In this document: in pieces, positions 24,701 through 64,000 of the stretch | Layout of the letters: each line of letters opens with the position of its first letter | How positions within the stretch are numbered: position 1 is the first letter of the stretch | NCBI GenBank assembly: GCA_015143295.1 | Contig: CM026561.1 | Span: 37,886,875-37,950,874 of the forward strand | Source of the DNA: Tetracentron sinense | Taxonomy: Eukaryota > Streptophyta > Magnoliopsida > Trochodendrales > Trochodendraceae | Length of the DNA: 64,000 bases | Direction: 5' to 3' | The notes under the pieces: generated by a model | The model's database searches: none | Seen by the model: only the letters and a program-made list of their open reading frames with translations | Told to the model about the DNA's origin: nothing | Made by a program: the position numbers and the translations under genes

Positions 24701-27700
24701 AAAGGATACTTTTAGATCATGATTCATAGGAAGTAATCCAAAAGATCTACTTGACCTCATTTATATTTCAACTTAAGAATGCGCGAGCACTGATATTCGA
24801 GCGGGATGGATGGGTCTAACATCTTGTTTTCAGCGCGGTCTAACATCCAGTTTACATGGTATAAAAGACTTCAATCTGGCCAGGACACATGTTTATGAAT
24901 CTGACGACCCACGACAAACCTAGTAAGTGTTCAACCAAGATTTAGTCAAGTATGTTTTCTGACATTGGCGTATAATAAAAATATGTTACCTCCAAAACAG
25001 ACTTGATGAACCCCCTGTATTTCTCTGGCACAACTGATTCAACAGAAGCAGAACCACATTTACGTATCATGATTTCTAGTATAACTGTGACCTGTAGTTG
25101 CAATAAATTTGCACATTTATTAAGAATTTTTCACGAAATTTATAAAACAGATATAAGTTTGTAATAACAAAAGTTCATCCCAGAACTGCACGTGCCTTTT
25201 CTCTGAAATGATTTCTTGAGACAGGCGACCATGGAAGAATTCCGTTTACAATATCAGGAAGAAGATTCTGCAGGTCTTTTGCTTGTAAGCAGGATACCAA
25301 AACTTTTATGAAGCCTAAAACAGCCTGTTACATGCATAATAATTAATCCATGAAGACTACAAGTAACATAGAAAATAATGAGATGGGTTAAGAGTTGGGG
25401 GCTCGCTCACTTTTATAACTTCCGCGCCTTTGTTTTGCAGCAAAACTAAAACAGAGGGTACCAGATTAGGTACAGAAAAACAGACATCAGTGTCCTTGTA
25501 TATCAGCAAAGAAAGTGCAGCAACTGCTCCACTCATTACGTGAGGAGATGCACCGGAAAGATATCCCATTATCTAGCCCATTATGCAACATGAAAATAGA
25601 GTTGATCAAAATAAAGCAGGAGAATAAACTCATCATAGCCAGTTGTCTAACAAGGGTACATAAAATTTCTTAAGACTAAGAGGAATAAAAAACTTAAATA
25701 AATTACTTTCATGCTGCACAGAAATTGTTTTCAATAATTTGGGTAAGGTTTCCTGTCGCATGGTATTCTTTGGATATAACACAGTATAAATTTGTTTTCA
25801 ATTATATGGATAAGATTACATATACAGTTAGCAAATAACAATATAGGAGCATGATATGTCGTGTCTGTCAGGATCAACATGTTCGCAAGGTTTTAAATGC
25901 TGACATTTGGGGATATATCACAGTTTCAAATTTGGATATATCATGGGGTATTGCAAGATAATATCGAAAAAAAAAAAGATAATATCGAAATGGTGGATTA
26001 TTTTCCCGTTCAAGAAAAAATTGAATATTCGAGTGAAACTTCAGGAAACTGACATTAATGCACACATAATTAGAAGGGGGCAAAGAAATGCACTGACGTT
26101 GCCTTCTCAATGGAGTGGGGGTTTATCTCGGGATTTTTCGAGAACTCTTCTTGTCCACTGGTACTTATGTACTGATATCCTGTCCTTGTTATTAGATGGG
26201 TGCTCGATCAGGCCTGACTTCGACGAGCTAGGGTTTTCTGCTTTCTTTGCTTCTCAATAGAGTTTTGTGAAATGCAATTTTCTGTTTTCTTTTACTTTCT
26301 TGGTCGTTCACCTCTTGGTGAACTTCAATGTTTCTTTTTTTATCATTACATTATTTGTTTATCGATCAAACGAAAAAAAAGGGACTACTAGCAATATATG
26401 ATATTTTGTTATGAATATAACATATACACATGATTTTCGCTCTTTTTATTTGATATCCCTAGATCATAAGCGTCAGTGGCTTCTATGTTTGAAAGGAGGA
26501 CTGCCTCGGTAATCTAGGTCCCACGGTTCAAGCGTACTTTGAATGATTGGGAAGTGAGTGTTTTTGTTAGGCTCATTTCTAGGTTGGAAACTATTCAGTT
26601 TTGTCCTCTTGGGATAGCCGAGTTTGGTCTAGTGACAACAAAGGTCGGTTTACAATGAGGTCCTTTTTACAGGCGTTGAACTCTGGTAGCTATCCTATAT
26701 TTCCTCGGCAGATTGTGTGGCACGTTGGTGTACCTTCGAATGTATCATTTTTCCTGTGGACAACATTTCTAGACAAGATCCCAACTCTGGATCATTTCAA
26801 AAGTATAGTTGGAGTCTACCGAACCGCTGTTATTTGTGCTTGGTAGATGAGGAATCTGTTGATCACTTGCTCTTGCATTGCTCCTTTGCAAGGAGCCTCT
26901 GGTATTATTTTATTTCCCAAATTAGCATCGCCTGGATTTTTCGCTGTTCCTTCTAGGACTTTTTATCTTGTTGGCATTCAGTCTCATTGGATTGCTCTCT
27001 GAATATTCATTGGGCTCTTTGGCAGGAGAGGTATAGGTGTGTTTTTGAAGATTCTTCGCTACCATTAGAGAGAGTTTATGCTAATACGCGTTCTATGTTG
27101 CCAGAATGGGTATCTTTCAGAAATGATGTTGGGAAGCTGCAAATTGATGAGCTTATTTCATAGTTTGGGCGATACATTGTTTATTTGTTTCCCCTCTTTG
27201 GTTTTTGTCTTGGTTTCTTTTCTTTGCTTTAGGTTCACTTTTTGTGAATCTATATCTTGTTATTGCTCTTTTTCATTATATGATATTGCAGTTACCGATT
27301 AAAAAAAAAAATGTCAATCACAATGAAAATAGAGTCAACTCCATGTTTGGTTCGGGGCAGCCCAAGGACAAAATCCATGGCGATATCTTTCCATGGAGCT
27401 GCTGGTATAGGTAAAGGCCGATATAGGCCAATATTTTGGGTCTGCCCTATAGTAAATTGACACCCAATGCAATGTTACACAAAACTTCCAACATCACGCT
27501 TTAAAGAGGGCCAACAGTATTGTTGTCTCACAAAGCTTCAATTTGTCTCTACCAAAATGCCCACCAAGTCCACCACCATGTAATTCAGCCATGAGATGTA
27601 AGCGTGAAGAGCTAACGGAAATACAATCATACTATAAGAACTTTTTTGTCCTTTATGAATTGCTGCCTAAACCTGGAAAAAGAATGGGTCCATCTCATAA

Positions 27701-30700
27701 TGCTCTAGCAAGGGGTTGTCTCACCAAGGCTTCAAATTCCCTATGTGTTGTATCTACACACCTATACTATCCTAAATTGTGAACTTTTCTTGTCCCTTGC
27801 TGCCTTCATCTCTACGATGATTTAAACAATCAAAATAGCTACTTTTTACTTTAAAATTCCACTAATTGATCATTCTTTTGACATAATGATGGAATTTTTC
27901 ATAAAGTGATTTGAGAGATGTAGAGCCCCGAATTTATCATTCATGACATTTGTGTTAATTATTAAATTCTATAGAAATATATGTTTAATTTTAATGTGAT
28001 TAAGCCTATAAAAGTAATGTGAAACGTATGTATTTTAAAACACAAATAAATCACTCAATTTAAGTTGTTTTTATAATTAAATTGCATGAAAAGAAAGATA
28101 GTCAAAAAACGTCGATTTTTAAGTTGTTTTTAGAATTAAATTGCATTGGCCGATCGATCGCCCACCGGCGGCGACGATCAATTGCCCCTCAACGGTGATC
28201 GATTGCCCAAAACGCCGATTTTTCTCGAGTTTGCGCAATTTTTCGATTTTTGAGTCCTTAGAGCCCCCAACACTATAAATAACTCTTATGTTCGTGGGTT
28301 GAGGGTTTCTAAGGCTTTCTAAATCAAAAAGAGAGAAAAAGAGTTATTTTGAGAGATCTAAGAGGAGAAATTAAAGGTTTTGCAATGAGAATGGCGTAAA
28401 GACTTAGATCGATCATATTCGCAAGCGCTTGATCATAGGGAAGCGATCAGGAGAGGTAAATATAGTTTCTTTCCAACCAATATGATGATTTTTAATATAA
28501 ACAAGGAGAAATAGTTTGATTTAAAGAAAGAAATAAGGTCAAACATATTATTTTATGAATCCCTTATGAAAATTGTTTATGAATTTAAGAGATCTTCTTA
28601 TGATCTTAATATGTAAATCAACAAGGGGAAAGGGAAAAATTGTGTAGTTTATGCATGGTGGATGATGGAGGGGATGATTCTTAGATTTGATGGAATAAAT
28701 ATGAGTTTGATTTGAAATTGTGATGTGTTATAAAACTAGGGTTTTATGGGATTGATTTTATCAAAATTATATACCGAGAATTGATGCATGATTAATAGAA
28801 TTGTTTCATTATTTTATTATTAAAAACCTAATAGGGCATATTTTTATATTGATCAATTATGAGAAATTGCATACGCTTAAATTAATGTATGATTGACAAA
28901 TTACATGATGATAGATGTTGATTAAATCAAACCTGAATTATGGTTGTATGACTTAGGGGTATTATCATGGCAGCGTTAGTCGTTAGGATGAGTTTTCGAG
29001 AGCCCTTACCAATAATTCTAGGTGCAATTTAATTAATGACTATTATTATTTCACTTACACTCATTTTTTTTATCATAAGTATTATATAAGTATACGAGCA
29101 CACGAGCATGACTGTATGATTGGGTTTTGCAGTGCCCGAGTACCAATAAGCCTAAGATCAAGGCAAGACACGCCGTATGCACCGGATAATGTGCAGATAA
29201 GTCATATACACCGGACAATGTGTAGACAAGCCGTATAGACCGGATGATGTGTAGACAAGCCGTATGCACCGGATAATGTGTAAACAATGTGGTACCTCGG
29301 TAAGTAGGGTATATGTTAGTCTCTATCGAATATATGGGGTAGAGTTATTTTAAGTTATTGCACAGTGCATGTTGTTGTATACACTCACGAATAAGAAAGA
29401 CAAGTAAGATAAATAAGAAAGATAAGTACAAACGAGCACGTATAAGAATTGATTTGAAATTATGGTTCCGCACTCTGATTTGTTTATAGGCTTACATGTA
29501 CTGTTAAATCATGATTTATGTTTTATATTAATATTGTTACTAGGAGTGTACATACGCGAAGTAACTTGTTACTCAACCGATGACTTTGTTGTCGGCAGGT
29601 TCTAGGTTTGATATTTGTCCACCACGACCTTGGGAAGAGGAAGAATATGAAGAGGAAGAAGAAGATCCAGCAGGAGATTACCCCGAGGGTGAATGGAATC
29701 TAGATCGTTGCCCATTATCTGAAAATTAAATTATCAGTATTTAGATTTGGAGTTCAAGACATTGTAATAGATTTAATCTTGGATTTATGGTTAGGTTGGA
29801 TTGATGGTTGAGAATCATGATGATGATTCGAATTATTTAATATATTTTAGTTTTAATTTGAGATATCATATTTGATTATGATTAATTGAAGAAAAATTTT
29901 CAGGTTCATATTTTAGATTGCCTTAAAAGCTTTATGACAAGATATTATTATGGTTTGATGATCATTATCTTCTAGCTCCAAGGAGTTCTCAAGCATCATT
30001 TGCTTACATCTTGACATTCGATTCAATGGTGTAAATCACCTTTGGAGTTCATATACTTAGGTTTGCAAAGAAACTAGATAATTAACTTGTACCTTCGTAA
30101 TAGTAGACGCCAATGTTTTAAAACACTAAGGCGTGAGGCTAGGCATTCCACTTGTCTAAGGCATGAGGAGTAAGCCTCGAGGCTTAAGGCGTAAGCCTTT
30201 TGGAATTTGATTTTCTAATAATCAAATAATCTTAAAATAAAGGAAAGTTAAATGATTGTATCATTAATCAACCTACAAAGCCTAGGATCACTTGTATGAT
30301 GTATCAAATGATTGTATCATTAATCAACGGCCAGTACATTAAGTTTTTAAAAAATACATTAAGTTGTTTAATTGTAATCAATAGCTTGTATCAACCATCA
30401 ACGGCCAGTATTAAGTTAAAAATAAACCCACAACATCATGCACAAGTTCAATTTAAACCCAACTACCCAACTACCCAACTACCCAACTACCCAAGTTCAA
30501 CTTAAACCTACGTATAAGGTTACTTGATCTCCTCTGTCAGGAAGACTAAAAAGGAAGGAAAAGACGGAGGGGAAAGCGTGGGTGGAAGAAAAACATGTAT
30601 ATTTATACCTCTATTTTTTTTATTCTTCTCCTCTGTCTGTTTCTTTTTTTTTAAAATGGCACAATCCAGCCAAGAGAGGAAAAGGAAAAGAGAGAAAGAG

Positions 30701-32898: not shown

Positions 32899-35800
32899 GC
32901 ACACACATAAAGAATCACGATCCTTTGCAGACTCTGATCTTTATAACTGTGGCAATCAATTTTGATTGTAGCTGACTTCAATTTTCAAAATACAGAGAGG
33001 GGGAGGGGTTTTTGAACTGTAGGCTCAAAGATTGCTCATAAACATGAATTCACATTCCACACCTTTTTTAGTGTAAACCTTTGTACAAGTTGTCTTCTAC
33101 TTGCTAATAAGTTATGTTTTATTTTCAAGTTATACATGACCTATAAACTTGTCTCACAAGGTTATTAATGTTGTGAGTCCTGGTGCTTAAGTTGAAATTT
33201 GATACTATTTAGGTACTAGTGCTACATAGTAGAACCATAAACCCGTCTGACCTAGAATATTAATGTTGCGAGTCCAGGTGCTTAAGTTGGCACTCAGTCT
33301 TGTTTTATATCAAAGGATCACATTGGTATACGTGTGTTTCCTTACATGTTGATGTAGGAGATTTGTCCCTTTCATGCATTGGTGCTCTGCTAAATTTTCT
33401 CAGTCAAAATTTGATCAATTATCCTGCATGATGGCTTCATGTGGAAGTAGAAAAGATCAATGGTAGTGTGTGTACTAGCCCTACCTTAAAAAAAAAAATT
33501 CACTAGTAGCATTCAGGCACATGCTGGCCTTCTATTTTATCAAAGCCTCAATCTATAGGATCCAAGGAGTTCATCAGGCGACCGCCTCATGTGACCATGG
33601 GGTCGTCACCTCAGGTTGCCTTGATAACCATGATACTCAACTAATATTTGTGTCTCTACCATTTTTTCTATTTCGTCCAACGATTCGATAGATAATATTT
33701 TCCTTTTCTTAAAATAGAAGTCACTCCCTTCTTCCTGAGAATTACCCATAAATATTCATTTATTCATACGTTGGGTCTCATATTTATAAAAAAAAAAAAT
33801 TAGCGATAGGTAGACATGGGGTGGTATTGTCAACTTTGATTTGGTGTTAGGGCTCAACAGTCTGGTCTCTCAAGTTGGTCCTAAATCATAACGATTGGGA
33901 GTTCAGGGATTTGATTAAGCTTTTGAGTCGATTGAAAGGGGTCTGTCCTTGTCCAAAACCCAAAGATAGTAGTTTGAGGCATAGTTACCAAGTACGGGTA
34001 CGGGTATGATACGGCAATGATACGTTTAGGAAGTACGGGTGTTATACGGCAAAAACACGGTAAAAGTACGGGAAAATTAATAAATAATTAATAATTATAA
34101 ATAAATAAAAATCATGATATTAACTAATTATAATCATTTAATGCGGAATATGCATTTAACAGGGTAAAAAATCGCAAAAATACGCGTATTGTACGTGTTT
34201 AATAAGGAATTAGCGTATTAAACGGCGATACGGGTATAACAAGTAACACGGCAAAAATACGGAATTTTAAACGGCGACCCCCTCTAAAAATATTGTATGC
34301 GTACTATACGGGTATAATACGAGTGTTTGGTAACTATGGTTCGAGATCCAAGATCCACATTCAGATTTTGACAGTTTTCAACAAGCTATGGGTTCTCGTT
34401 TAGATTTCAGCACGACATTTCAACCTCAAACAAACGGACAAATGAGAGAATCAAATTATAGAGGATATGCTACATGCCTGTATGCTAGATTTTCGAGGTA
34501 GTTGGGATGAATACTTAACATTGGTTGATTTCGCCTACAGCAACAGTTATTAGGCAAGCATTCAAATGACATCATTCGAAACTCTTTATAGTAAGAGTTA
34601 TCGCTCTCCTCTTTGTTGGGATAAAGTTGGTGAAAGAAAAATGTTGGGTCCTGAACTCATTGAGCAGACTGCAGACAGAGTTCGAGTGATCAGGAAAAGA
34701 TTGAAGACTGCTTAGAGTAGGCAGAAGAGCTATGCGGAAACTCGCAGGAAAGATCTGGAATTTCAAGTTGGAGATCATGTATTCATTAAGATTTCGCCCA
34801 CGAAAAGAGTTATGAGATTTGATAAGCAATGTAAGCTAAAGCTAAGTCTGAGATATATAGTCCCTTTTGAGATTCACAAAAGAGTTGGAGAGGTTGCTTA
34901 TTGAGTTGCCTTACCTCCTCAGATGGCGGTAGTGCACAATGTCTTCCATGTCTCTATGTTGAGGAAGTACATTCCAGATCCATCTCATGTGATCGCCTAT
35001 TAACCATTGAATATTCGTGAAAACTTGACTCTAGTTGAGCAACCGACTCAAATTTTGGATCAAAAAGAGCAAATATTGCGAACGAAGACGATTCGCTTGG
35101 TTCTCTTGCGTTGACAACATCATTCTGTAGAGGAAGCCACGTGGGAAAGTGAAGACAAAGTTCGAGAAAAATATCTCCACCAGTTTGACTAAGGTATGCA
35201 ATTTCAAGGATGAGATTCTTATAAGGAAGGGAGGATGTAGAGACCTGTATTTTTAATTTTCAATATTCATTTCATACATGTGATGTCTTGTTCCTTTGAT
35301 GACTTGAAGTTGATTCCAAAATGACTTAGTATAAAAATTGCAGGAATTGTGAGAAATGAGTGATTTTTCACAAAAAAAAAATAAATTGTCGAATTTTGAG
35401 ATAATTTTTCCCAGAAATTGATGGTTATATGTTAAATGAGCATATGCGATTTTATGGGATTTTAATATTATGTATAAAGTGGTTTATTCAACTATCTATG
35501 TTGGGACAACGGGTAGGATTTTCGTTTTTGTGCTAAAACTAGAAAATAAGATTTTGAATTTCTAGGAATTTATTTTTTGTTTTTATTGAATCCAAATTGA
35601 GGGTATTTTCTTGTTTTTTATTTAAAAACTTAAAGTATCATTTACTTAACTGTTTTTAATGAAAATAAGTGTTGTTATTGGTGTTGTAGAGAAAAGTGTG
35701 TTATTGTTGTGTATTGTAGGAGAGAATCAAGGCATTAGCCAATCTAGTCTACCGTATTTCACAGTCGGTCAACCGCTGTTGAGAAAAATCGCGAAAACAC

Positions 35801-38800
35801 AAAACAGTAGCCAAAGTACTCAAACCGGTTGACCGACTTTCGCACATAAGCTATTAAATTAGGATTTTGCAAGAATTATAAGGAAATTAGGAATCTAAAC
35901 CCTATAAATAATCCTTACTCGTGGGATTAGGGTTTTTAATCATTCTCAGAGCCTTGGAACTTCAGAGAGAGAGAAAACTACGGCTTTAAAAGGATTCTTG
36001 ATTGGAGAAGAAAAGCTTTGGAAAGAGAAGATTCAATCAAAGGGTGGTGTTATTCTAGTAGATTTGAGTTACAAGGATCCATTGGCAAGTTTTGATCGTA
36101 GAGAAACGATCAAGAAAGGTAGATATAACTTCTCTAGTCAATAGCATGATCATTAATGTTAAGATAAGAACAAGTATGAACAAGCATGAATTTTCAAGTA
36201 GATATAACTCTTGTGCTAGTGATTTTATAATTATTGATCTAAGATAAGAATAAGCATGAATATTTAGATGATCAAGAACAAGAATTGAATATTAATGTGG
36301 ATGTAATCTCTTGGTTATAAATGTCATGATCATTAATTTGAAGTAAGATTTAAGATTAAGCATATGTGAGTTTCTAAAGAATTTAAACGGTATGGTTTGG
36401 GATTATGATGAAGATTATCGATTTGTTATACATGTAGGGATTTAGGTCAATTTAAGATAATAATTTCACATGTATATGTTGTATGATCAGGTGTAAACAA
36501 ATTGGTTAAATAGTTTTGTGTAAATATGTAATTTGAGGGTTGTGATGAAATGATCAATAATGTTTATGATTTATTTATAAGAACCATGATTAATTATGTT
36601 TTCCCTATGAATTATGTAAATGATATGCCATGATGAATGAACTACGATGTATGCATGCTGTGATTTATTGAATTACGGTCTTGTTGCTTAGGTTATTTAT
36701 CATAGTGGTATGAGATACTACGATGGATCTCCGATGACACTCGATTTGTAACCTAGGGTGTAGTTTAACCGAGGGTTTATCATCTTCACCTCGCAAGTAT
36801 ATTAAGCTCACAAGCATGATATACTCACAATCACAAGTAAGCCACAAGTATGTATGTATGTATGCATGAATGCATGATTGAGTCTTCACAAGTAAGAGTA
36901 CCAATATTGTCTAAGATCATATGGGTATTCGTACCTATTACTCAAGCTCACAAGAAATCATATGCATACTGATGGGTGCTATGGTTGGTTATTCAGTATG
37001 AATAATATATCGTAGCCTCTTCACATATATAGTGTTGAGTTATTTTAAGTTATCGCACAAGTGTAGGCAAGTTGAATATGCTCACATGTTTCTGCACTCT
37101 GATGTATGTATGTAAGCATGCCATAGTAAGTTAAGTCATGATAATTATGATTATGTTAATGTTTATGATATTCTTAGTTAGGATTTTATGTCTACTAAGC
37201 CGCATGTGCTCAGCCGATATGTTTTATGTTGCCAGATTTAGATTTCGAAACCATAGCTGAACCTTGAGGAGAAGAGGAGTACATCGAAGAACCCGAAGGT
37301 GATTACGTAGAAGAGGAGAAGGATTTGGATAAATATCCATATTATTGACCTTTTTAGATGTAGTTTTGAATTCATTGATTTTGAGTTTAGTATGCCTTGT
37401 ATGCTCTTGTTAAGATATGAAGTCTCAGGATTAGTAGCCAAGATAATGCAGTGTCATGAGTCAAAGTTCCATTCGACCTAGATGGGATTTTGGGTCTCGA
37501 CAAAAGTCGAGGCTAAAGTTTAGGCAATCGTTGTGTTCTGTGCCAGGCTAAGGAGGAATCGGTGGAACATTTACTCTTGCATTGTTTATTTGCTGGTGGG
37601 ATTTAGAGTTCCTTCTTATCTCAGTTAGGGGTGGTCTAGGTCTTTCCTAGATCCTCGAGACTTCTTATCTTGCCGGTCTTCAATTTCGTTGGATCCCCCA
37701 CTAGCAGCAGCATGGGCTCTCCTTCCGGGAGCTATTACATAGTCTAGTTGGAAGGACAGAAATAGGTGAATATTTTAGGGTGTTGGAGCTTCCTATGACT
37801 CAGCTATTCAGGAGGATCTGTCTCCTTATTATCTCTTGCTTATCGATCAGTAGAGAACGGGAGGATTGAGATGTTACTTTTAGGGTGTTGGTTTTAATTT
37901 ACTTTGGGAGTGTATGTACGTTTTTCTGATTTGGATCCTGTTTTCCTTTTCTCTTTGGTTCACTCTTTGTGAATTCATTTTTTTTCCTTGTATATTTCTT
38001 GTTACTTCTTAATGAAATCCTGATTACCTGTCAAAAATAAATAAATAAATAAATATATATATATATATATAGAAGACAAAATGGAAAGTAAATTGTATAT
38101 CAATGGAGGAAATAGCGATGTGCAAAACATGACATGGATTCTTTACAATGACATTGTACGACAATTGAAAGGGATATAGCGTAGCTTGGTAGCACGTTTG
38201 TTTTGGGTTTCTTTTCCATATATTTTTTTACAAGACTACAATTACAAAAGCAAACTTTGGGAAACTTCAACATAAACTAAGAGGAAAAGAGAACGTAATT
38301 TTGTAGCAATCATGTCTTATTCAGTTCACTATTTCTTTTCTTTTTCTTATAGGTACCAAAGTCTTTGTTAATAAGAAAGAAAAATAAGACTTTCACACTA
38401 TTCACCTTTCATGTGGCGTTGAATCATGAGTTCAAGTCGGAGGAGGTTGTTTGCGGTTGAGTTCAAGTCTTTTGAGTTGCAGGAGGAGGAGAGCAGAGGT
38501 CATTGGTGGATTCTAATCACAGAGAGGGGGAGGGGAGGCAAGATTAGTAAAATAGCAGTGGAGTAGGAAGCGTCTCGTTGGCTAGCCAAATGCATCGAGG
38601 AGGTGATTGTCTCTACTCGGGGTTTCCTGGTCAGGACCTTCAGAGGAGCGTTCGGGTCTTTGGTTGGGGAGAGAAGAGTGAACCCAAGGGGGAGTTTTTT
38701 CTCCTTAACTCTGTTCCAAGGGTCAAGCAGAGGGAGGCGGATTATTATTCCCCTCTGGATTGAGGCAGGAGGGGTGGAAGGCGTTCCAAGCTGCTATCGA

Positions 38801-41800
38801 GTATTTCTCGCGGGAGAGGAGCAAGTCTGCATCCGGTCAAGATGCAGTTCGTGGCAGCTGCCTAGTAAACAATGTCTCTTTTGATCATTGGCAGAGTAGT
38901 AGTCGAGAGGATGTTCGGTTTGGCATGCCGAGGAAGGGTATCTCAAGTCATATTTCCGGTTGTGGAGAGCAAGCTAAGGTGGTGGTTGAGTCAGACGTGG
39001 ATGCATTTGGGGATTGGGCAGAGGCGGTGGTCTGTTCAGTGGGAGGACCCGGCGATAGAGCTCAGTGGAAGGAGGTGGCGAATCTTATGCTTTCCTTGTT
39101 ACCCGCTGATCCGACAGTGAAGTTGCTCCCATTTGAAGATCAGAGGGCATTATTTTTTCCTACCTCGGCAAGCAGTAGACTGCGCTTATGCGAATCCAAG
39201 TGTTTCCCCTTGAGGGATGGATACTTTGTAGGGTTCCACAGATGGTGGCCGGCGTCGAATGCTCTATCCTACACTGGGCTTCTCAAACCCCGTTGGGTAG
39301 CCATCAAAGGCCTCCCTTTTCATCTTTGGGTGGAAACTATCTTTTCGCATATTGGAAGGCTGTGTGGGGGGTTGATGGAGATTCATCAAGCAACGACCTC
39401 AAGATCCGACTTATCCAAGGCCATAATCAAGGTGTGCTGAGATTTAAGGGGAATACCTCGGCTGATTGTGCTAGAGCTCCACTCTTCTTCTTACCCCTTG
39501 GAAATTTCGTGCTAGGAAGAGGCTCCTTGTGAGTCTTGCGTAGGGTGGTCGGAGTTTGTGGAGCTGGTTCGCCGGCGAGAGGGGTTCGGTGGGATGGAGG
39601 TTGGATACAAGTGCGAGGGGATGCCACGTGGCAACAGGTCTATGATGCAAGCGGCTATCCTCAGGTCCTCACTGTTGGCGGTGCCAGAAGGAACCATCCT
39701 TAGAGGTAAGACGTGTGCCGAGGGTAGTGGAACAACCTGTGGTGATGGAGACAGGATTTTTCAAGCGGATCACGCAACAGAAGATTCTGGTCAGAGAGGG
39801 GCAGCTCCAAGGGTAATACCCAGAGGATGTGATCAATATTCGGCGAAGGTGAGCGAGGCGTTTCCTGAAATGGCGAAACCCCAGTACAAGGCCAAAAGGC
39901 GATCGCTCAAAAATAGGAAAAGGAGTTTTCGAAGAAAGAGAGTGCAGTGGATTGAGCGAGCGAAAGAGGAAGCAGGAAGGCGTTTCAGTCTGCAGGAGGG
40001 AGCGTGCTCAGAAATGGAGGTTCTAGGTAATCTAGATCTGGAGACTAAGGGTAAAGACGAGTTGATTTGCCAGCTGGATCCCAATCTTTCTGAAGTTGTT
40101 GTGGGCCCACTTGCAGGCCATGTGTCGAGCAGCCTAGGTGGCAGTTGTGTTAGCCCAGTGCTTGAGTTAGTGGAGCAGGGTGGGCCTTTGTTTAGTGGGC
40201 CGAGAGAGGGTCCAGATGGGTTGCCTGCTAGCTCGAGCCTAGATCCTCAGGTAGAGGATGCGGTTCCGGCTATCATTCCCGAGCGGTTGGACCCCAGGGA
40301 CTCACTTGATTCGGGTGGGTTAAAGGCAGGTTCTGACCCATTTTGATTATGGCCCATTATCCTCCGGAACTCTTTAACCCAGAAGGGTTTGCTGAGGGTG
40401 CCTTCGTCTCTGGACGTTCGTTCTCTTCAGGAGGATTACGATGATTTGGGCAAAGTTCTGGTACCTCCGACTAGTCCTGGGTCTGCTTATATTGAGTCCG
40501 ACCTTGTCGGGCCCTCTCCATCTTGCAGGTTGAGGGATTCACCTCCTGGTCAACTTCTTATTTCGCATGAGGGGCTGTCAGGTTCTGGGCCAGGGGTGCG
40601 CGCTGGGGTGTTTTCGAGGGATTCAAGGGGCGGTAGCCTTCTTGTTTTCTCAGGGGAGCTGGGGTTGGTAGATTCAGATGTCGTGCAGGGTCAAGTCAGG
40701 CCGGAAGAGGACGTGGGCAGATTGAAAGTGGTTGTTGGTAGAGAGCAGGATCCCCTGGGGGTAGAGGGGAGTTCACCGAATCTTGTCAGAGTCTCGGAGG
40801 AGCGAGGCCCAGCTGGTGGGGAATTATCGGGGTCCAGCAAGAGGAGCCCAGGAACCAATCATGTGGGTGGCAATAGGGGCGGGATGGAGGAGGTGGGGGT
40901 TGATAGGATACAGGCTTGCTGTCAGTCTGAGTTGGTGGAGGTGGGGGAGAGGTTGGGAACCGAGGCTCAGGAGCTCGTTTCAGGCACACTTCTCTCCTCT
41001 TCTCCTTGTTCCTAGTTTAGTTGCCCCTTGGTCAGTGGGGTGAAGGGTGGTGGAGCTGGGTGGCTACCATCCCTGGGGTCTAGCAGCCCTTTGCTGAAAT
41101 TGGCAGTAGGCAGCTCTCCAACCTCAAAGGTGGGCTCGGGGAGGTTCGAGCTTGAGGAGACCTCTAAGGGCAAAGGTTCTTCCAAAGATAAGGAGTTGTC
41201 TAAGACTTCTTTAATTCCAGCAGGAGGTGAGCTTGGGCAGCCTCTTGGGGAAGCTTCCGACTGGGTGGTTTATCACATGGAAGGGTAAGCAAATTCTTGG
41301 GTGTGTTGATAGTTGGATTTGAAGAGGAGGCGAGGTCGTTGTTCTGGAAAATCGAGAAGGGGGGTGCTGGAGAGGCGGTAAAGTCAGGGGTTAAGGCAGT
41401 TGGAAGAAGAAAAGGTTACTCTGCGATGGAGCTGAGAAGGTTGGAAAGCGGGGTCAATTATGACAGACCAAAGGTTAGGGGGGTGTCGTGCAATCCGAAG
41501 CTGAGTAGGGTTCGTGCAGTGATTCGATGAATGCCTTGTCGATTATCTCTTGGAATATAAGGGGGATGGGGTACGCAGAGAAACGGATGGCTATCAAACA
41601 CTTGGTGCACTCTAAAAAGCCGGCAATTATTTGTATTCAGGAAACTAAGTTGGAAGTAATGAAGGAGTTTATCATTCAGGAGTCTTGCGGTCCTATTAGC
41701 CCCGGCTGAATGGCGACTCCATCCTTTGGTGCTTCAGGAGGTATTCTTATTATGTGGGACAAAGCAAAGGTGAAGGTCCTGGATTCTGAACAGGGGGCGT

Positions 41801-44800
41801 TTTCGCTGTCCATTCTGTGTCGTCTGGTGGAAGAGGAGTTTTCTTGGGTTTTCTCGGGGGTGTATGGTCCTTCGGGAGGGGCCGAGGATAGGCTATTGTG
41901 GGAGGAGTTAGACGATGTCAGTGTGCGATGGGGCAAACCCTGGTGTGTGGGGGGAGATTTTAATTGTGTCTGGGCGGTGGCGGAAAAGAAAGGGGGTCGT
42001 TGTTTCTCGGCTAAGATGAGGAGATTTGGGGACATCATCAATCGCCACGAGCTTATTGATTATCCGCTGCAGGGGGTTCAATTTACATGGTCTCATTTGG
42101 TGTCTAGTGGCAGAACTAGCAGACTTGATAGATTCTTAGTAAGTCCGATGTGGGAAAGGCACTTTCTAATGTTTCTCAAGCTTCGCTTCCCAAGCCTATC
42201 TCGGATTATTCGCTGATTGTGTTAGAATCTAGGTGTTTCATAGGAGGGCCATCTCCGTTTCATTTCAAGAACATGTGGCTGAAAGATGCGAGATTCCAAG
42301 AGGTAGTGGCTGAGGTGTGGAATAGTGGCGGAGGGTGGGGGACAGCTAGCTCGAGATTTAGCAGGAAATTGAAGGTGTTGAAGTCCAGATTGAAAGTGTG
42401 GAATAAAGAGGTCTTTGGCAATATTCAGACAAGGCTTGATGGGCTTCCTAGGGAGATTGCTCAGTTGGAGGACGTGGCGGAGGTTCGGGAGCTTTCAGGT
42501 GTTGAAGCTAGGGCGCATTAGGATAAGAAGTTGGAGTGTTTGGAAGTGCTTAAGCTTCAGGAGATAAGTTGGAAACAGAAGGCCAGAATGAGGTGGTTAA
42601 AAGAGGGGGATCGAAATACCAAGTTTTTCCACCGAATGGCAAATTACAACAGGAAGCGAAATTTCATATCCAGGTTGCAGGTGAACGGGTCGTGGAGGGA
42701 GGGGAGCCGCGAGTTAGAAGATGGCATTGTCTCTTTCTATAAAGATTTGTACCACGAAAGAGAGTTGGCGGCCTAAGGCGGATGGTCTATCTTTTTCAAG
42801 CCTAACCCAAGAGCAAAGTGAAATGCTAGAAAGGCCTTTTGATGAGGATGAAGTGTTGGGAGTTATAAGAGGTATGGCAGGGGATAAGGCTCCCAGCCCG
42901 GATGGGTTCACCATTGAGTTCTATAGGGAGTGTTGGGAGATAGTGGGAAGAGATGTGATGGAAGTGATGAAGGAGTTCTATTCTTCAGGGTGCTTTGATC
43001 GGGTGCTGAATTGTACTTTTGTGGTGCTAATTCCTAAGGAGGAGGGAGCGGAGGACCTAGCGGACTTTCGCCCGATCAGCCTCGCGGGAAGTATGTACAA
43101 GATTTTGTCCAAAGTTTTGGCGAAACGTCTTCAAAGAGTAATGGCATCTCTCATCTCCCCTCATCAAGGTGCTTTTGTGGGAGGTAAGCAGATTCTGGAC
43201 AGGATCCTTATTGCCAATGAGTGTATTGATGTTTGTATTAGGTCCGGAGCGCCAGGTATTGTTTGCAAAGTAGATATGGAGAAAGCTTATGACCATGTGA
43301 ATTAGGAGTTCTTGGAGTTTGTTCTCGCCAGAATGGGGTTCGGATTCTGTTGGAGGAGATGGGTGCGTCGGTGTATCTCTTCCGTCTCTTTTTCCATCAT
43401 TCTTAATGGCAGCTCGGTCGGGTTTTTCACCAGCTCTAGGGGGTTGAGGCAGGGAGACCCGCTATCCCCGTACCTGATTGTGTTAGTGACATAAGCCTTG
43501 AGCAGTATGTTGGCAAGAGCGGAGGGGGTCGTGTATGACGGATTCTCGGTGGGTTCAGATCAGTTGCGAATCTCTCACCTCCAGTTCGCGGATGACACCC
43601 TGATTTTTTGTAATGAGGAGCCTCGTAATCTTTTACATATTAGGTGTCTTCTACGGTGTTTTGAAGCTGTTTCTGGGTTGCGAGTCAACCTAGCCAAGTC
43701 AGAAACAGTTCGGGTAGGAGAAGTTCTCAACATGGACCAGTTGGCAGTTTGTTTTGGATGTAAAGTGGGAGCTCTTCCGTCCAGGTACTTGGGGATACCT
43801 TTAGGGGGAGGTTTCAAAGCTAAAGAGGTGTGGAATCCAGTCCTCGAGAGGTGTGCCAAGCAATTAGCAGGGTGGAAGTCGTTCTATCTTTCTAAAGGTG
43901 GCAAATTAACTCTCATAAAAAGTGTTCTCAGTAGCTTTCCAACTTTTTTCATGTCTACTCTAACCATGCCCAAGTCAGTGGCTTACTCTTTGGAGCGTAT
44001 GCAGAGGGAGTTCCTTTGGCACGACAAGGGGGACAAATTTAAATACCATTTGGTCCCTTGGAGCAGTATCTGTCTCCCGAATGAGGTAGGGGGTCTAAGC
44101 CTTAAGTCTTTGGTTTTAATGAACAAGGCCCTTCTTGGTAAATGGATTTGGCGGTTTGAGGAGGAAAGGGGTAGTTTATGGCGGGCAGTGATCGTGGCGA
44201 AATATGGGACAGTGTCGTGTTGGGTTCCGAAGCAGGTCAAGTCTTCTCACGGTTTGGGTCTCTGGAAGGGGATCATGGCGACGGCTAGTTTGGTAGTGCC
44301 CAGATTTAGATTTCGCATGGGGCAAGGGAATGAAGTGAGATTCTGGAAGGATGTGTGGTGTGGCGATTCTAAGCTCCAGGATGACTTTGGGCATCTCTTC
44401 TTTATTGCTACCAACAGGGAGGCAGCGGTTGGGGATTACTTCGAGAGGAGAGAGGGAGTGGTGTGGTGTCCGCCTTTAAGAAGGAGCTTGAATGATTGGG
44501 AGATTGATGAGGTGGCGCGTTTGCTAGCCCGATTAAGCTCCTTTTCTCCGTGTTCTGATGTTAGTGATAGCAGGGTATGAATGGGGAAGAGAAATGGGTG
44601 TTTTTCAGTTAAGTCTCTGTTTAAGTCTATGGGTTCGGTCTCTCGGGATTCGTTTCCTCATCGGGTAGTGTGGAACCCTAGCATCCCCTCTGAAGTCCCT
44701 TTCTTCCTCTGGAGTGCAGCTTTGAATAAAATTTTAACGTGTGATCACCTGCAACATAGAGGCTGGAAGATGGCCAACCGATGCTTCTTGTGTCATAGAG

Positions 44801-60982: not shown

Positions 60983-61278
60983 CTTGTTCGCATATTAAGG
61001 TATTTGAAAGGTGCTCTTGGTAGTGAACTTCTATAAAGGTCTAATAGGCACCTTCGGGTTGAAGGGTATTGTCACGACCCAAAATCCTTCTAAAATTTTT
61101 GGAGACTTTGGCTCGTGACTTATATATCAAACCATTTTGTAAGAACATACAAGGCATACTAAAAGCAGAAGCTGAAAATTTCTTGAGCAATATTCCAAGT
61201 GACAACAAGAGTTGAATCAAACAAAGAACAAATGGACATTCCCACTTGAACCAATTATAAGCAAGTCACTCTCTCTCC

Positions 61279-61401
61279 TCACTCAACAAAATCTGGATAA
61301 GGCCACCTGTCAAGGCCCCTATCCTCCACTGGATGATCTCCCTCACGATCTTCCTCGACGTACTCCTCCTCGACTCGAGGTCCCGGAGCACAAATATCAA
61401 A
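61279..61401 (-). other. Conserved acidic reading frame inside gypsy LTR copy C
   Basis: Exactly 40 codons from Phe (FDICAPGP) to TGA, the same length as in copy B. It shares FDIC-x-P, EEEY, GD and LDR with B, using different codons. The plus-strand proline-rich frame across the same bases is its shadow. Confidence 0.5.
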
Positions 61402-61712
61402 AGGACCTACCGAAGATGACAGTTCAGCTGAGCATTGAAAGGCTCAGCATATACTAACCACTAAATAATGATGTTATAAGCAATAACATGTTTTCACACG
61501 CAGTTCATGTATCTCAATTAATCAAAACACATGCATACTTTAAATCGAAGTGCGGAAATCATAACTTCAATATCAATGTGCATACTTTTCAAAACTATAT
61601 ACTTTACTTTGCTTTCTTTGAAAACCATATACTTTTACAAGCTTCTTTGAGACTTTTACTTTCCAATTATCATCTTCCATTACTTTACACTTAACTTAGT
61701 CGAGTTAATCAT

Positions 61713-62195
61713 TCTTACTTAGAATCAAATAACTAATTGTTGTACCTAGTCTGAGCACACTAACATCTTTCCAATACCATCCTTGTTCATTCATTTTACT
61801 TGGGATCAAATGACTAGTGGTTGAATCTGGTTTGAGCACACTAACATCCACTCAATACCATCTCTATTCAATATTTTACTTGGAATCAGATGACTAGTGG
61901 TTGTACCTGGTCTGAGCACACTAACATCCTTCCAATACCATCCTTGTTCATTCTTTTACTTGGGATCAGATGATTAGTGCTTGTACCTGATCTGAGCACA
62001 CTAACATCCTCCCAATACCATCTTTATTCAATATTTTACTTGGAATCAAATGATTAGTGGTTGTACCTCGTCTAAGCACACTAACACTCTTCCAATAACA
62101 TCCTTTCCTTTTTGTTTTACTTGGGATCAGGTGACTAGTGGTTGTACATGATCTAAGCACACTATCACCCTCTCAATAACATCTTTTGCAATTGT
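61713..62195. repeat. Tandem repeat, 6 x ~80 bp, in LTR copy C
   Basis: Units begin TTTTACTTGGGATCA, continue GACTAGTGGTTGTACCTG and GAGCACACTAACATCC, and end CAATACCATC. Units alternate in their last ten bases (CTTGTTCATTC against TTTATTCAATA), suggesting a 160-bp higher-order unit. They lie in the putative LTR intron. Confidence 0.85.
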
Positions 62196-64000
62196 TCATC
62201 TTCTTTATTTTACTTTTCGGATACTCATACTTAATACAAAACTTCGATCATGGAATTGCAAGTGCTCATATACCATTTGTGAGTGACATATAGGCAATAA
62301 GACTTTAATAACATGGCATATGCATTTCAATTCCCAATTCATAGTCCTAAACATGCTCACATATAATCTAAACACATAATTTCATCTATTTAATATGCTT
62401 TACATCACAATCAAGACATCATATCTTCTCTTTCATCAAGAATTCACCACATGAGCAATTTAATAGAGTATAACTAAGGTTTTGCATTAAACACATGAAT
62501 TTCATCATTTCTTTCAATAAAGGATTACAACAAGATTCTTTAGTAGAGAGTATCGACCTTCCGAGATCGAATCCCTTCGATCTAGCGCTTTAGAATGACT
62601 GGAGGAGATGAATCCAAGCTTTTCCTTGCTTCTTCTAGAGCTTTCCTTAGAAAACTAGGTTTTCTACCATTTCTTTGTCAAATTGGCTTAAAAGAGTTAG
62701 AATACTTTAAACTATACCAGGAAGCTCGTTTCCCACACTCGCTTCCTCGGATGGACTTGCTTCCTACGAAGCTCGCTTCCTCGGACGAAATCGCTTCCTA
62801 GGAAGCTCGCTTCCATCACGTCTCATCTAGTAGTCAAAGGTAGTTGTATGTGTGAAGTGATGTGGTAAACCACAGTCTATAGCCTAGGGTGCAGACTCTA
62901 AGCAAGTATCGTCGTTTTGAAACCTAATGTACCTACTTTTCCCCAAAAATCTCATGCAATATAAAATCAAAGGTATAACTATCCATAAATAACATAATGG
63001 GAATGAGGAACCTATATCTCATTTCTCACTTCCCGTTTCCTAAGGTTTTTTTAAGTCTCGCTTCCCGCTTCTCGCTTTGCTTCTCGTTTTCGCTTCTCGC
63101 TCTGGTAATTATGCTTTAAACCCACGAAATAGACTTTCTATTTATAGTCCTAGGGTTTCAATCCCTAAAAATCCAGACTTAACCCCCTTTTTAAAAAAAA
63201 CACTTCTGTGCAAATTCGTTCGAACAAATTTATATTCGTTCAAACGAATGTCAATTCGTTCGAACCAATCTAAGACCTATCAAATGGAAATGGGTGTTGG
63301 AATGTTCACCCAATTGAAATTCCTGGCTTCATTCAAACAATTGAGAATTTGTTCAACGAATAGTCCAAAACTTCTCTGTACTTTGCATTCCTACCAACTT
63401 TGCCTCACTTGTTTAGACTTATATATTTTTTAACCATTCCAAGACATAATTTAAGATAAAATACTCATCAAAGCAATTCATTATTATCCAACCATGAATT
63501 ACAACTTACGTTTACCATTTTACCTTTAATGAGCATAGAATTTACATGGATGAAATCCGGGTCTCTACATGTATTCTAGTATAGAGTGGGTGAGATGTCC
63601 TAATAGGAGATCCACTATGAGTTATTCACAGTTGTCAAAAACAACCTTGTTAGGTGAAAGAGTAAGAAGCAAAGTTTTGGTGCCACATCCAGTATTGTAA
63701 GCTTGTTCGGTTGGTTGATAGGAGATCCACTATCGGTTATTGCAAAGTTCTGGTGCCACATCCGGAAGCAAAGTTTTGACAAGACACATACCACGTGTGA
63801 GCTTATTTGGTTGAGGACACTAATGACTAAGATGGGGTTGAAACTTGAAAGCTGATAAACCAATAAAGTCATATTGTGGCAATCAGGTTGTGATCATATC
63901 ACCAAAAATCCTATTTTCCATGATTGAATGAAACATAAAGAAGTTGATTGTTTTGGTAACAAGGTGGTCACTAATGAGATTTCTACCCCATATGTACAAT

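Follow-up and report, generated by a model that had tools for sequence, protein, structure and literature searches.

The subject of this report is a short acidic exon within the long terminal repeats (LTRs) of Ty3/gypsy retrotransposons, as found in a window of 64,000 nucleotides (nt) of the Tetracentron sinense genome (contig CM026561.1, positions 37,886,875 to 37,950,874 of the forward strand; the window denotes this whole stretch). Three sequences in the window, designated copies A, B and C, each lie within an LTR and enter their reading frame from an acceptor-like AG (site A3) in one and the same codon phase. On the substitution and indel patterns described below, the LTR very probably holds a real coding exon, under selection and preceded by a splice acceptor. 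An end repeat usually held to be noncoding seems to contain a real coding exon, and the acidic tail that it encodes is probably, to judge from splice signals and reading phase, spliced onto the capsid protein of the element.

The initial annotation had described one gypsy family with a frame kept in three LTRs. Much of that description stands, as copies B and C both run for 40 residues from phenylalanine to stop, and the EEEY, GD(Y/H) and LD(R/K) blocks are present with differing synonymous codons. The F-D-I-C-x-P opening ascribed to all three is, however, absent from copy A (37244-37348), where an in-frame TGA occupies codon 8, and the copies represent three diverged families rather than one (~60 % identity over the longer aligned blocks). 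The TGA of copy A reflects decay, because 14 of 18 frame-intact A relatives have TGG (Trp) at that position. When the three exon peptides were compared with both strands of the whole window by tblastn, only copies A, B and C were matched at E < 2e-5, the next best match having an E value of 0.04.

Selection on the exon

The search space was the 1.16 Gb genome of the same plant, and the exon regions of B, C and A as queries gave 2172, 1933 and 659 first-look candidates, 40 of which were scored for each. Forty B and 30 C loci were read (the window copy counted in each), along with 20 of 39 further places for A; loci carry L numbers where they need to be told apart. The C family was split into groups C1 and C2, C1 being the least diverged group, and 91 of 96 exons entered a codon alignment, with five frameshifted rows left out.

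The selection on protein that had been proposed is borne out by these comparisons. In the exon frame, the ratio of nonsynonymous to synonymous substitution rates (dN/dS) is 0.35 for C1 against C2, 0.40 for B, 0.35 for C2 and 0.80 for C1; within groups on the codon alignment, it is 0.23 for A, 0.30 for C2, 0.40 for B and 0.70 for C1, with three of the four groups well below 1. For C1 against C2, the other two frames give 0.95 and 0.74, and the flanks give 0.47-0.96. Between families (B, C1 or C2, and A), the proportion of synonymous differences (pS) is 0.77-0.95 and that of nonsynonymous differences (pN) is far lower at 0.30-0.37; only synonymous change is thus close to saturation.

Frameshifts, which the initial annotation had named beside dN/dS as a check, point the same way. 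Scored against one reference per family, with shared events counted repeatedly, indels number 40 in the exon and 419 in flanks of about twice its length, making them about fivefold rarer per base in the exon, and those in multiples of three make up 16 of 40 in the exon vs 94 of 419 in the flanks (p=0.019). Single copies nevertheless show decay: the aligned exon is without internal stop in 11 of 40 B copies, 12 of 21 A copies and 6 of 30 C copies, the natural C2 stop falling inside the aligned stretch in the last case; among the 91 kept rows, with 14 natural C2 ends excluded, 43 of 63 internal stops sit in three Trp columns. A sliding dN/dS scan for a second coding exon in the LTR gave a weak result: in B, the exon windows rank top (0.51 and 0.53) with others close behind (0.53-0.54), and for C1 against C2 the exon's own frame is absent among the windows listed that passed the stop filter.

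The acceptor site and the exon in other elements

Of ten stretches taken from downstream of integrase matches, eight carry the exon 3' of pol, where it appears as FD(I/V)CA..P in L111 (with one stop), L112, L114, L115 and L118 and as a diverged form, PW(V/I)EET..EEGGEGEP, in L113, L116 and L120; it was not seen in the L117 and L119 stretches, which may miss the exon position. Between the acceptor and FD (PW in the diverged form) lie 2 nt plus 3, 6, 12, 21 or 24 nt according to family. Since these family spacers are all multiples of three, the acceptor phase is constant across the families read, and it follows that the exon starts at A3 and that its upstream partner leaves one base; that the partner lies upstream follows from the exon ending in a stop. 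Among the copies read, 30 of 40 in B, 22 of 30 in C and 15 of 21 in A retain the AG of A3, as do six of eight other loci; the remaining two (AT in L111, AA in L118) were placed by homology. No relatives were confirmed in viral and prokaryote collections, and searches of Pfam with the B and C peptides and of PDB with the B peptide gave no match, with nothing there to favour the captured host exon that had also been suggested.

A hairpin, CTGAG..CTCAG, whose inner pairs vary by family, occurs in the 64-nt stretch before the exon motif in L112-L116, L120 and part of the A and C families. A stem of at least 6 bp was present in 34 of 98 such stretches (shuffled mean 5.2, maximum 13), those of window copies A and B not being among them.

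Identity of the element

The LTR that carries the exon close to its 3' end has a terminus similar to GGATTTTGGGTCGCGACA; of 70 B and C loci, 65 yielded this end motif, and a primer site of tRNA-Met type follows it in 10. Upstream of LTR A are a pol end of apparent chromodomain type and a polypurine tract, the LTR starting at 35236 (Table 1). Inverted termini, a primer-binding site after the 5' LTR and a polypurine tract before the 3' LTR are all present, as are gag, protease, reverse transcriptase and integrase in that order, based on Pfam searches of pieces, with reverse transcriptase recognized only from the text of its open reading frame (ORF). Pfam placed Retrotrans_gag in gag, RVP_2 at the start of pol and SH3_Tf2-1 at its end, with zf-CCHC sub-threshold in gag and Chromo at the pol end below its cut-off (E 1.3e-4; 22.2 bits vs 25.1). 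These Ty3/gypsy chromoviruses are presumably of the Tekay/Del type, going by their motifs.

Between the pol stop and the polypurine tract of L091-L110 lies a near-palindrome, AATTTCGAGGACGAAATTC, which is kept in 20 of 20 elements and in copy A (at most four mismatches), even where the context of the pol stop is altered. The LTRs of L115 and L063 are flanked by pol-end sequence on the upstream side and by a primer site on the downstream side, which suggests tandem elements sharing one LTR. Also in the window are a lone integrase core-like frame at 27292-27474 (-), near the start of LTR B and on the opposite strand, and frames resembling a long interspersed nuclear element (LINE), with endonuclease-like and reverse transcriptase-like text, at 38700-44600 (+), behind LTR A.

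Table 1. Features of the three LTR copies in the window (a slash marks the putative splice point)
Feature	Position	Strand	Remark
Acidic terminal exon, copy B	29599..29729	+	Phe 29607; stop 29727-29729; follows acceptor
Acceptor-like A3, copy B	29586..29598	+	TTGTTGTCGGCAG
Donor-like D1, copy B	28448..28463	+	CAGGAGAG/GTAAATAT; putative intron from 28456; would close untranslated exon 1
TATA box, LTR B	28274..28281	+	
LTR B, approximate ends	27919..29990	+	start has one mismatch to TGTAGAGACCC; 3' end is the family alignment limit
Acidic terminal exon, copy C	61279..61406	-	Phe 61401
Acceptor-like A3, copy C	61407..61418	-	CATCTTCGGTAG
Donor-like D1, copy C	62550..62565	-	CTCGGAAG/GTCGATAC
LTR C	61070..63569	-	TGTAGAGACCC ... 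GGATTTTGGGTCGTGACA
Acidic terminal exon, copy A	37236..37348	+	interrupted by TGA 37265-37267
Acceptor-like A3, copy A	37225..37235	+	TATGTTGCCAG
Donor-like D1, copy A	36111..36126	+	CAAGAAAG/GTAGATAT
TATA box, LTR A	35903..35910	+	
LTR A (3' LTR)	35236..37502	+	
Polypurine tract preceding LTR A	35223..35235	+	
Pol stop TAA, then donor-like G/GTATGC (D3)	35190..35199	+	
Integrase C-terminal fragment (SH3_Tf2-1)	34716..34904	+	element owning LTR A

The leader and the start of gag

Within the LTR, the TATA box is followed by an ATG-poor stretch of ~150 nt and then, after a hairpin, by the donor-like site D1. Among the 27 copies in which this exon 1 was located, ATGs average 0.93 per copy and are absent from 12, vs 3.19 expected from a mononucleotide shuffle; stretches of equal length after exon 1 hold 8.7. 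As L125 and L127 have TGA and TAA in phase before D1, their exon 1 is not the coding partner, and exon 1 as a coding partner, being ATG-poor and having such stops in this one lineage, is unlikely. The stem of the hairpin before D1 is GATCG..CGATC or GAATCC..GGATTC by lineage, with an AGGGA-like loop, and is seen in the window (36090-36118, 28430-28455 and 62590-62558 (-)) and in L121, L124, L125 and L127. In LTR C, the TATA box and D1 are 589 nt apart (63146 to 62557, -) vs ~180 in L045, and exon 1 of that window copy seems to hold an insertion.

At eight of nine loci tried, the gag start is preceded at a distance of 9-10 nt by an acceptor-like site, A1 (TTCTCAG or TTTCAG), which reads CAG/G in five (two of them near-duplicates) and CAAG in three. 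Of these eight loci, four retain an intact gag ATG, and the stretch from the LTR end to gag holds 2-8 ATGs.

The gag-protease intron

A donor, D2 (CARG/GT, phase 1), is present at all nine gag/pol boundaries read, and an acceptor, A2 (AG/G), at seven of them, L133 having AA and L132 none that could be found; the L139 stretch was without a gag/pol boundary. A GT-AG intron restoring the frame exactly between gag and protease is seen with its GT in 9/9 and its AG in 7/9, and it measures 133-142 nt (six measured). If it is retained, Gag stops within nine codons at the five boundaries that were followed further in frame. Genome-wide, the D2 pattern has 491 matches vs none for the reversed control. 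The corresponding intronless pattern has one exact match and six at up to two mismatches (control, none); in each of the six, gag meets protease in a frame that stays open across VQ^G, and about four sequence types are represented. In a comparison that included eight intron-bearing elements, the nearest other type to each of these was at 0.76-0.81 identity, being intron-bearing for three types and intron-lacking for the fourth (L144). The pattern of six intronless junctions fits reverse-transcribed spliced RNA.

The upstream partner of the exon

D2 interrupts the gag frame after a single base of a codon, matching what A3 requires, and it is present in the lineage of L137 and L138, whose pol end lacks D3, the donor-like site that follows the pol stop, and which bears the exon (L112 and L114). 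This agreement in phase, together with the keeping of D2 in an exon-bearing lineage devoid of D3, leads to the proposal that D2 would have two partners. Splicing of D2 to A2 would yield Gag-Pol, while splicing to A3 of the 3' LTR would skip pol and yield Gag with an acidic tail of ~30-50 residues; this Gag-only isoform would have its assembly or its binding of RNA tuned by the tail, by analogy with other LTR elements, in which a short spliced mRNA supplies extra Gag. We rate at somewhat better than even the reading in which a Ty3/gypsy element of chromovirus type (Tekay/Del-like) uses the feature as its final coding exon through alternative splicing of D2, and the odds that Gag is the splicing partner of the acidic exon appear slightly in its favour. 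Whether a plant chromovirus lineage possesses a retrovirus-like splicing programme, with the LTR providing a Gag isoform with its final coding exon, we would put at evens. The fusion to another frame by splicing that the initial annotation envisaged would be correct in form, with the exon serving as a C-terminal tail instead of a leader; likewise, the frame is outside gag-pol by position, whereas through splicing it is probably part of Gag.

A number of points weigh against joining the exon to Gag in this way, or against the evidence behind it. Three pattern searches of the genome found no natural copy of a D2-A3 junction, and, because a retained gag intron already ends Gag, production of Gag by itself does not require the tail. 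The intronless gag-protease junctions were found by a pattern demanding that junction, they could, at an identity of only 0.76-0.81 to the nearest intron-bearing relatives in the comparison, be old intronless lineages, and the one such copy with its LTR read keeps an exon-like frame, with one stop. Within C1, dN/dS of the exon frame (0.80) is above that of the other frames (0.37 and 0.60), likely owing to neutral decay of dead copies; C1 alone has a lower other frame (0.37), so the signal is carried only by the older comparisons. Furthermore, phase 1 donors can arise anywhere, and the tail might be joined to some other exon, for instance from a donor in the unread greater part of pol; this is improbable given that D2 is an in-frame, right-phase donor at the end of the ORF at every boundary read. 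D3, which directly follows the pol stop, could be the donor served by A3. Splicing from D3 (TAA G/GTAYGT) to A3 with read-through of the stop would extend integrase by the tail at its chromodomain end, and 18 of 21 pol ends read, copy A included, do have TAAGGT after the pol frame, in the phase of A3; the pol end, like A3, was not recognizable in L136. Such a Pol extension is nevertheless doubtful, and is set aside because an in-phase TAA stands one base before D3; moreover, the lineage of L092 and L099 is without D3 yet has the exon, and a genome pattern search found no natural D3-A3 copy.

Another objection to the Gag-tail proposal is that 37 of 40 family B copies and 11 of 21 A copies have an in-frame ATG ahead of the exon, with no intervening stop, as would suit a micropeptide of the LTR leader, made from a D1-A3 spliced RNA or, in family B, from the unspliced upstream ATG. 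D1 and A3 share an LTR and a phase, and the frame of B and C is open over the last codons before D1. This too is an unlikely account, however: such an ATG occurs in only 1 of 30 C copies, exon 1 has few ATGs of its own and in-phase stops in L125 and L127, and no LTR copy lacking the D1-A3 intron was found with the B/L115 pattern. An upstream ORF with its own start is therefore not common to the families, and the micropeptide that had been put forward does not hold as a family-wide feature. Least credible of all, and very improbable, is that the exon is a noncoding, purine-rich splicing enhancer in which GAR repeats mimic synonymous change. The exon is rich in GAA and GAG and directly follows an acceptor-like site, but the codon-alignment results are little altered once Glu and stop codons are removed, synonymous codons also differ among families in the Pro, Leu, Tyr and Gly columns, and the spacers change in steps of three.

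Significance and comparison with known systems

If the proposed D2 scheme is true, an intron between gag and protease and a coding exon in the LTR would let chromoviruses set their Gag : Gag-Pol ratio. LTRs could then not be annotated wholesale as noncoding, nor the exon be used as a neutral clock, and intact LTRs, solo LTRs too, would carry a ready acceptor and a stop-bearing exon that could trap host transcripts. Protein coding by an LTR has a likeness in the retroviruses, where sag of mouse mammary tumour virus and nef of human immunodeficiency virus are encoded there; unlike the present exon, these are contiguous frames, and the proteins are unrelated.

A 2025 review describes introns as generally absent from plant LTR elements, with Ogre and EVADE as named exceptions (PMC12786077). 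Among the open-licence papers listed, titles and opening lines of abstracts describe no Tekay intron or LTR exon, which is weak evidence of novelty. Coding sequence extends into the 3' LTR in the CRM group A chromoviruses (PMC3059260), where it is a continuous polyprotein frame, unlike the exon considered here, which lies near the 3' end of the LTR behind an acceptor-like site. Tekay elements with a 5' additional ORF (PMC11728184) share the clade label and encode protein beyond gag-pol, although that ORF is internal and of ~400 amino acids, in contrast to a short acidic exon in the LTR. In Cer1 of Caenorhabditis elegans (CERV), an additional protein is likewise encoded by an LTR element through a spliced mRNA (PMC10309623, PMC12786077), but this is an animal element, and the protein, required for nuclear export, is unrelated. 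Ogre, a Ty3/gypsy element of the Tat lineage, has a polyprotein-splitting intron that is spliced from part of its transcripts (PMC6317226), whereas the present intron lies at the gag/protease boundary of a chromovirus. The proposed scheme also resembles that of Ty1/Copia elements, namely EVADE of Arabidopsis and BARE, in which alternative splicing gives a Gag-only mRNA beside Gag-Pol (PMC8892269, PMC12786077, PMC3735527), the short mRNA of EVADE being ended by splicing-coupled early cleavage and polyadenylation; it differs in belonging to a Ty3/gypsy element, in having its terminal exon within the LTR and in the conserved acidic tail that would be added.
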